A stretch of DNA of 64,000 bases from Fibrobacter sp. UWR2. Lineage in GTDB: Bacteria; Fibrobacterota; Fibrobacteria; Fibrobacterales; Fibrobacteraceae. This document shows positions 56,969-59,859 of this stretch, piece by piece. The stretch covers positions 744,001 through 808,000 of the forward strand of contig NZ_MWQE01000001.1 of assembly GCF_002210285.1 (NCBI RefSeq), written 5' to 3'. The position numbers were made by a program, and so were the translations under genes. Each line of letters opens with the position of its first letter. The stretch's first letter is position 1. Below the pieces are notes generated by a model. The model worked only from the letters and a program-made list of their open reading frames with translations, ran no database searches and was not told the origin of the DNA.

Positions 56969-57028
56969 GTTACGTTGCTATGCGCGTTTTTTCGGCTATC
57001 TTGGTTGGGCGGAAGATTCCAATTTTTG

Positions 57029-57036
57029 TATTTTTG
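57029..57036 (+). promoter_or_regulatory. TATTTTTG -7-like element inside the annotated bamA 5' end
   Basis: Exact TAnnTTTG located 49 bases after ATG 56980 and 42 bases before CTG 57079. If used, the real bamA start is downstream of it. Confidence 0.45.
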
Positions 57037-57078
57037 TGCGGTATTTTAAGTTTTTTTGCTTTTATAGGAAGGTTTACT

Positions 57079-59859
57079 CTGCGTTCTCGAATTGTAATTC
57101 TGATTCTCGCCTTTGCCGGTTTGATGCACGCCCAGTTGCTGGATATGTCCCAGATGCCTACGGACTATATGGCCGAAAACACGGTCCGTAAGGTCAAGGT
57201 CGAAGGAAACGTGAACATGGACCAACGTTCGGTCCTTAGCCGCATTGGTATTCGTGATGGCCAAACCTATTCTCCGTCCGCTCTTTCTGACAAGGTTCAG
57301 GATGCGGTCTCGGCACTCTACAAGTCGGGCCTGTTCGATGATGTGTCTGCCTGGGTCGACTACGTGGACAATAGCACCGAGTTGGACCTCATTTTCAAGG
57401 TTAAGGAACTCCCTGCTCTCGATACCGCCATCTTGGATGGATGTGACGAAGTCTCCGAGGACGACCTGCGCCTCAAGTTGCGCATGCTTCCGGGCCAGGT
57501 GTACAGCAAGAGCCAGTTGGAACGCGACCGCCAGGCCTTGATTGACCACTACCGCTCTGAGGGATTCCTGCTGGCCGAGGTCGGCTACCGTGAGACGCCC
57601 GTGGACGAAAACAAGAACCAGGTGACCTTCATTATTCGCGAGGGCGAGAAGGTCAAGGTGCGTGCGATTGATATCAAGGGTAACGACAACGTGCCCGCGA
57701 TAGACATTACCGACCATATGCTCACGAAGGTGGACCAGTGGTACGGTGGTGGCGAGTTCAAGCAGAACGTTTTCGATGCCGACCGCGACACCGTGCTCAA
57801 CGCTATCCGCCATTTCGGCTTCCTGGATGCGGAACTGACCGACTACCGTGCAGAATACCTACCCGATTCCAGTTGCCTGTTCTACCTGGGCCGCATGGTG
57901 CCGGTAGGGGAAAGGCTGCAGCCGCTTTACGACCAGTTGAACCGCGCGATGGGCGATCCGGCGACAGCCATGTACAAGATGGCGGGTAAGCCCACGATGC
58001 AGGTCTCGCACTTCTTCCGCCAGACGAGGGAGGCTTCCAGTCATGGGTATGTCTCCCGTCCTCTCCCGCAGGTCAAGGAAGAAGAAGACGCCCTCAAGCT
58101 CCTGAACGACATTATCCGCTACGAGGATTCCCGCAAGGAATGGCTCAAGATTGTGGATGGCCGCAAGTTCAACAACCCGAAAATCGATTCGCTCAAGAAG
58201 ATCAAGAAGCCCTCGGAATACGAGGAAAAGTTGCTTGTGCGCTACATGATCGAAGACATGTTCCCGCTCCTGAACAAGTACGACAACATCAAGACGTCGA
58301 GCGCCATCTGCATCCATATCGGTATGAACGAGGGCCGCCGTTACTACATGGGTAACGTGCACTTCTCCGGCAACGAGGTGCTGAACGACAAGGTGCTGGG
58401 TTACGCGTTCCGCTTGGATAGCGGTTCCGTGTTCGACCAGTACCTGTACGAGGCTTCCCGCAAGGCACTGATTGATGTCTACCGCGAAGATGGCTACCTG
58501 TTTGCGCAGTTCGACGAGGAACGCACGTTCGAGAACGACTCCGTGGTGAACCTCACGTACCGTATGCGCGAAGGCTTGCCTGCAAGTATCCATAAGGTCT
58601 ATATTCACGGCAACACGAAGACCAACGAGAAGGTTATCCGCCGCGAGGTGCGCCTGTATCCGGGCGATACCTACCGCCAGTCTGCCTTGGAACGTAGCTT
58701 CCGCGAAATTATGCAGCTCAACTACTTCGACATGGTCATACCCGATATCAAGGTCTATGGCGAGCAGGAAGTGGACCTCGACTTCACTGTGCAGGAGAAG
58801 GAAGCCGGTACCGGCCAGTTCAGCCTGGGTGTGTCGTATAGCGAAAGTGATGGTCTCGTGGGTACGGCCAGCGTGTCTATCCCGAACTGCTGTATGGGTG
58901 ATGGCCAGGCGGCGAGCTTGAGCGTGGAATACGGTGCCGACAAGAAGAGCGCATCTCTCAGCTTCCAGGAACCCTGGCTCATGGACAAGCCGATTACTCT
59001 CGGTGCAAGCCTCAGCTACTCCTGGTGGAATATGGAAGACTACAACGACCCGGACATCACCCGTTACGGCGGAAGTGTGTACCTGGGTAAGCGACTCAAG
59101 TGGCCCGACGACTACTTCTATGGACAGATCGGTTACAGCTGGCTCATGAACAAGCAGGGCCCGAATATCGACGACAGCTACGTGGTCTACACCGGTATCG
59201 AATCTGCTATTAACCTCCGCCTCGTGCGCGACGACAAGAACCTGCCGCAGTTCCCGACCGAAGGCTCGCGCTACGTGCTTGACGTGCAGATTGCCGACGA
59301 CCTCCTGTTCAGTGACTTTAGCTTTGTCAAGACGGAGCTTACCATCAAGTGGTGGTTCCCGCTGTTCCGCGACCGCCTGGCGATTGCCCTTACCAACGAG
59401 TATGGCGTTATCTTCGGTGACCAACTGCAATACCGCACGCTCTACACGATGGGCGGCGTGATGGGTTACGAAGGCAACATGCGCGGCTATAGTTCGGGAT
59501 CTATCGGCTACCGCCGCCTGGGCCGCAGCTACCAGTACATCGGTGCGGAACTCCAGTTGGGTATCGTTCCGCAGACATTCTACCTGTTGCCGTTCTTCTT
59601 CGATGCGGGTAACGTGTTCGGTGAACGCTATGACCCCAAGACGAAGGTTGCAAAGCCGAGCAGGAACCCGCTCAGCGAATGGGATCCCTCGAGCCTCAAG
59701 AAGGATGTCGGTTTCGGTTTCCGCGTAGTGGTGCCGATGCTCGGTATTATCGGATTCGACTTTGCATGGCCTCTGGATGTGGGCGAAACCTACACTGGTC
59801 TGCAGCGCAGCAAGGTGGGCGACATGGAATTCAACTTTGTCATTGGTCAGGGATTCTAA
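57079..59859 (+). CDS. bamA: Outer-membrane protein assembly factor BamA
   Basis: 926 aa if started at CTG 57079, which has AGGAAGG six bases before it and begins directly with the signal peptide RSRIVILILAFAGLMHAQ; 959 aa from ATG 56980. Residue numbers below count from ATG 56980. Five POTRA domains: ~69-140, 141-216, 227-452 (split), 455-535, 536-608. POTRA3 is broken by an extra ~135-residue segment (303-438). The barrel (~610-959) contains the lid motif NMRGYSSGSIG and ends NFVIGQGF with a terminal Phe. Inserts barrels into the outer membrane; skp follows. Confidence 0.93.
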   Translation: MRSRIVILILAFAGLMHAQLLDMSQMPTDYMAENTVRKVKVEGNVNMDQRSVLSRIGIRDGQTYSPSALSDKVQDAVSALYKSGLFDDVSAWVDYVDNSTELDLIFKVKELPALDTAILDGCDEVSEDDLRLKLRMLPGQVYSKSQLERDRQALIDHYRSEGFLLAEVGYRETPVDENKNQVTFIIREGEKVKVRAIDIKGNDNVPAIDITDHMLTKVDQWYGGGEFKQNVFDADRDTVLNAIRHFGFLDAELTDYRAEYLPDSSCLFYLGRMVPVGERLQPLYDQLNRAMGDPATAMYKMAGKPTMQVSHFFRQTREASSHGYVSRPLPQVKEEEDALKLLNDIIRYEDSRKEWLKIVDGRKFNNPKIDSLKKIKKPSEYEEKLLVRYMIEDMFPLLNKYDNIKTSSAICIHIGMNEGRRYYMGNVHFSGNEVLNDKVLGYAFRLDSGSVFDQYLYEASRKALIDVYREDGYLFAQFDEERTFENDSVVNLTYRMREGLPASIHKVYIHGNTKTNEKVIRREVRLYPGDTYRQSALERSFREIMQLNYFDMVIPDIKVYGEQEVDLDFTVQEKEAGTGQFSLGVSYSESDGLVGTASVSIPNCCMGDGQAASLSVEYGADKKSASLSFQEPWLMDKPITLGASLSYSWWNMEDYNDPDITRYGGSVYLGKRLKWPDDYFYGQIGYSWLMNKQGPNIDDSYVVYTGIESAINLRLVRDDKNLPQFPTEGSRYVLDVQIADDLLFSDFSFVKTELTIKWWFPLFRDRLAIALTNEYGVIFGDQLQYRTLYTMGGVMGYEGNMRGYSSGSIGYRRLGRSYQYIGAELQLGIVPQTFYLLPFFFDAGNVFGERYDPKTKVAKPSRNPLSEWDPSSLKKDVGFGFRVVVPMLGIIGFDFAWPLDVGETYTGLQRSKVGDMEFNFVIGQGF

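Follow-up and report, generated by a model that had tools for sequence, protein, structure and literature searches.

The bamA gene lies on the forward strand of the window, i.e., the whole stretch of 64,000 nucleotides that was analysed, in a frame whose stop codon ends at position 59859. A CTG codon (57079-57081) is in frame with it, and the coding sequence that begins there (57079-59859) has 926 codons plus the stop. The protein read from this CTG is BamA, which is essential and assembles the outer membrane, with POTRA repeats and an Omp85 barrel above curated cut-offs (TIGR03303, 386 bits versus a cut-off of 297; PF07244, POTRA, and PF01103, Omp85, were both matched). The CTG is preceded by the Shine-Dalgarno (SD) sequence AGGAAGG (57066-57072) and a 6-nt spacer, TTTACT; an earlier note had placed AGGAAGG six bases before an in-frame CTG, and both the coordinates and the frame were correct. 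The segment 57079-57132 would encode a signal peptide, read from the sequence as (M)RSRIVILILAFAGLMHA, with the likely cleavage before QLLDMSQ. It is typical of its kind and, as read by eye, its n-region, h-region and AQ junction are common to the relatives and the outgroups, which agrees with the earlier claim that a CTG start gives a clean signal peptide.

Upstream of the CTG, the standard codons in the same frame are one ATG (56980-56982) and two TTG (57001 and 57034). The earlier note had treated this ATG as the only one; it is indeed the sole upstream ATG, but the two TTG codons are also present, likewise without a SD. The frame of ATG 56980 is open as far as the bamA stop, and an upstream start is what a gene finder limited to ATG, GTG and TTG would choose, which makes this ATG a possible default-annotation pick. 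Translation from ATG 56980, or from TTG 57001 or 57034, would lengthen the N-terminus by a stretch that contains a second hydrophobic segment; the residues read upstream of the CTG would include MRVFSAILVGR..., IPIFVFLCGILSFFAFIGR.

When pairing with the anti-SD was computed, CTG 57079 had a duplex energy of -7.1 kcal/mol, whereas the upstream codons had -0.5 (ATG 56980, which had correctly been described as devoid of a SD), -1.7 (TTG 57001) and +0.9 kcal/mol (TTG 57034). The usual bacterial anti-SD, ACCUCCUUU, was assumed in these calculations; the 3′ end of the 16S rRNA was absent from the 2.39 Mb of the genome that was read. Random sites gave a median of -2.2 and a 5th percentile of -6.4 kcal/mol, and ATG codons near coding starts a median of -4.55 kcal/mol. 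As a SD, AGGAAGG is good though not perfect, and CTG 57079 is an in-frame codon at SD distance without a better standard start. In dnaA, an upstream CUG with a SD was a candidate start that was shown to be unused in vivo (PMC8443254); hence, a SD and a CUG alone are not proof of a start. The dnaA gene, however, has a standard AUG downstream, and bamA is set apart from it by deep conservation and by having no alternative start.

Genomes of the genus, together with public contigs, supplied the bamA genes, which gave 71 distinct 5′ regions from Fibrobacter and its sister genera (locus L077, on a contig shared with L127, was re-anchored by one codon owing to a codon insertion). The codon at the start position is CTG in 68 of these regions and TTG in the other 3, and ATG was found in 0 of 71. 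By genus, the homologous position carries CTG in g2, g3, g5 and g6, TTG in g4, and ATG in g7 and g8, which are more distant members of the same family. Conservation extends to the SD block: most relatives carry TAGGTAGG, the consensus is TATAGGTAGGTTTATT, and positions -13 to -6 hold 1.4-1.8 bits over the 71 sequences. Among the 42 columns with leucine in at least 95% of the sequences, the start column included, the start column showed the least variation in codon (a single codon in 96% of the sequences versus a median of 53%). On the BamA tree its codon changed only once, whereas the 41 other conserved leucine columns changed 8-30 times, with a median of 19. The exchange between ATG, CTG and TTG and the single change on the tree are the pattern of a start codon, and on these comparative grounds the codon at 57079 is kept as a start and not as a leucine. 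We consider it very probable that bamA of the gut bacterium Fibrobacter begins at CTG 57079, as the earlier note had proposed, the position of the start and the identity of its codon being established by comparison. The check suggested at that time, whether bamA genes of Fibrobacter conserve the SD and the CTG or instead the ATG, clearly favours CTG.

The same sequences bear on the upstream codons. An in-frame upstream ATG was present in only 6 of the 71 loci, at differing positions, and in 27 of them no in-frame ATG, GTG or TTG lies between the preceding stop and the start codon. In loci L032 and L033, which are the two nearest among the relatives with aligned sequence (BamA 93-94% identical), a stop interrupts the upstream frame. 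A conserved N-terminal extension, equivalent to the 33 residues read from ATG 56980, was sought in the 71 sequences and was not found. Some relatives have TTG codons near the leader that would be usable in principle, nearly all of them without a SD.

The element TATTTTTG (57029-57036) is a predicted promoter element of the -10 type, with the Bacteroidetes-like form TAnnTTTG. An element at 57029 had been noticed before, and it fits this motif: TAT[TC]TTTG (TATTTTTG or TATCTTTG) was found upstream of bamA in 71 of 71 loci. In this genome TAnnTTTG is ~3.5-fold enriched upstream of genes (283 occurrences versus 81 expected), and its counts peak between -40 and -31 and again between -20 and -11. 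A sharp peak at -13/-12, as leaderless genes would give, sets the offset between motif and transcript start, and by applying this genome-wide offset the bamA transcript is predicted to start at ~57041-57042, with a 5′ leader of ~37 nt (57041-57078). ATG 56980 would thus lie outside the transcript, ~60 nt upstream of its predicted start. Furthermore, the distance from the motif to the start codon varies between 38 and 59 nt among the relatives, in all three phases, so that this stretch is not coding. With the SD energies, the scattered upstream ATG codons and a leader whose length is out of phase among relatives all standing against it, translation from ATG 56980 or from either upstream TTG is extremely improbable, and we judge this ATG to be unused.

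The CTG could also be conserved for another reason, as an RNA element or through its overlap with the SD block, with translation starting downstream, e.g., at TTG 57121 or ATG 57124. The SD block adjoining the CTG is conserved as a unit, which would suit such an explanation, but a stable RNA fold was sought around the bamA start and none was found (z +1.15), and a downstream start would strip this bamA of its signal peptide. In addition, the downstream start codons vary in position among the relatives, from codon 1 to codon 22, whereas the ATG of the outgroups is exactly at the position of the CTG, and the closer genera swap CTG only with TTG. A downstream start is very improbable, and CTG 57079 remains the preferred start.

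Non-canonical starts were also sought across the genome, of which 2.39 Mb out of 3.28 Mb were covered. A genome-wide use of CTG starts was rejected: SD-preceded CTG near coding starts stood at 1.19x in 0.8 Mb, where it was no commoner than other codons, and at 1.69x (4/120) in 2.39 Mb, where several ordinary codons were higher. In skp, an in-operon control, the projected start was mostly ATG (62) or TTG (19), and the remainder were misprojected ends. A strict search for genes without a standard start returned mainly antisense artefacts, together with prfB and rpsI. The main frame of prfB (G000 C4, stop at 122655, outside the window) has no standard start, which fits the usual programmed frameshift of this gene. 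The rpsI gene (ribosomal protein S9; G000 C1:251380-251797, L166, outside the window) lies behind rplM, and its frame, which has no ATG, GTG or TTG start, has an apparent ATC start after the SD GGAGG. This codon is ATC in 23 of 30 Fibrobacter loci and ATG, at the same position, in the other 7. As judged from sequence comparison, rpsI appears to be the one other convincing near-cognate start found, so that two essential genes would carry such starts.

In the mechanism that we propose, bamA would be transcribed from the promoter with the TATTTTTG element to give an mRNA with the short leader described above, AGGAAGG would position the 30S subunit, and the initiator fMet-tRNA would begin at CTG 57079. 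The resulting precursor would be MRSRIVILILAFAGLMHA followed, after the cleavage point, by QLLDMSQ, presumably with fMet as its first residue. The start would contain a built-in brake, in which a weak start codon, discriminated against by IF3, is offset by the conserved SD, and this brake would keep BamA synthesis low or make its rate adjustable. We give about an even chance to the CTG start acting as a brake on BamA synthesis. Alternatively, the CTG start would be real but without a regulatory role: it would have arisen once, the SD would have compensated for it, and nothing would select for ATG. This alternative, which competes with the brake only and not with the CTG start, has somewhat under an even chance. 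A trend for weaker start codons to be offset by stronger SD sequences is known (PMC5622118), and rpsI conforms to it: its SD is stronger in the ATC form (-9.5 in nearly all of these loci) than in the ATG form (-6.6). On the other hand, ATG is only one base change away from CTG, yet the sole exchange among the 71 sequences is with TTG, which is also weak, and the lack of any reversion to ATG favours a selected role, as the brake would be.

IF3 control of conserved non-canonical start codons has a precedent in the GTC start of Streptomyces sigR (PMC5472188). The bamA start codon is also non-canonical and conserved across its genus, as is common to IF3-controlled start codons, but sigR differs in codon (GTC versus CTG), phylum and gene; furthermore, sigR balances a sigma/anti-sigma pair, and repression by IF3 was shown for sigR, whereas for bamA control by IF3 is a proposal. 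The infC gene, with its AUU/AUC start and autoregulation by IF3 (PMC5472188), resembles bamA in that an essential gene has a near-cognate start codon; infC, however, is controlled by the very protein that it encodes, and a direct loop of this kind is absent from bamA. In the genome analysed here, infC (IF3; G000 C1:476808-477425, outside the window) has an apparent TTG start behind AAGGAG. Regarding the codon itself, work with E. coli ribosomes showed poor pairing at the first position in CUG complexes (PMC11497404), where the fMet-tRNA pairs with CUG at the second and third positions, as it would with the bamA CTG. The mRNAs in that work were model ones and the initiator tRNA was a mutant, whereas in the initiator tRNA of Fibrobacter the GGG/CCC anticodon stem is retained. 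A relaxed initiation machinery was rejected as the cause of the CTG start, since this stem is kept and IF3 matches known IF3s along its length. A further proposal, which we regard as unlikely, groups bamA (CTG) with rpsI (ATC) as a few essential genes of Fibrobacter with deliberately weak start codons. Through these codons, their synthesis would depend on the level of IF3 or on initiation fidelity, so that the assembly of the outer membrane and the making of ribosomes would follow the condition of the translation machinery.

Known bacterial genes with conserved non-canonical starts are few, and bamA stands out among them by the gene, the codon and the depth of conservation; a literature search found no conserved non-canonical start for bamA. 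Because switches from AUG to CUG are so rare (2 of 61,358 ancestral AUG starts in one survey; PMC5622118), the retention of CTG by an essential gene throughout the genus and its sister genera offers strong evidence from nature that weak starts can persist. Annotation restricted to ATG, GTG and TTG would misplace the start of Fibrobacter BamA, so that the annotated protein would either carry an N-terminal extension that is not real or lack its signal peptide.

In the 2.39 Mb of this genome (G000), TAnnTTTG and TATATT elements peak sharply 12-13 nt upstream of start codons, most of which have no SD, which suggests that many Fibrobacter transcripts are leaderless and that the promoter is Bacteroidetes-like. 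The bamA genes of g7 and g8 (G128, G113, G138 and G141; loci L140, L138, L137 and L136) have a promoter-like element ~15 nt before the ATG, an arrangement that is leaderless-like. Judging from these arrangements, initiation at ATG that was leaderless, or nearly so, seems to have given way in this lineage to a leader with a SD and a CTG start.
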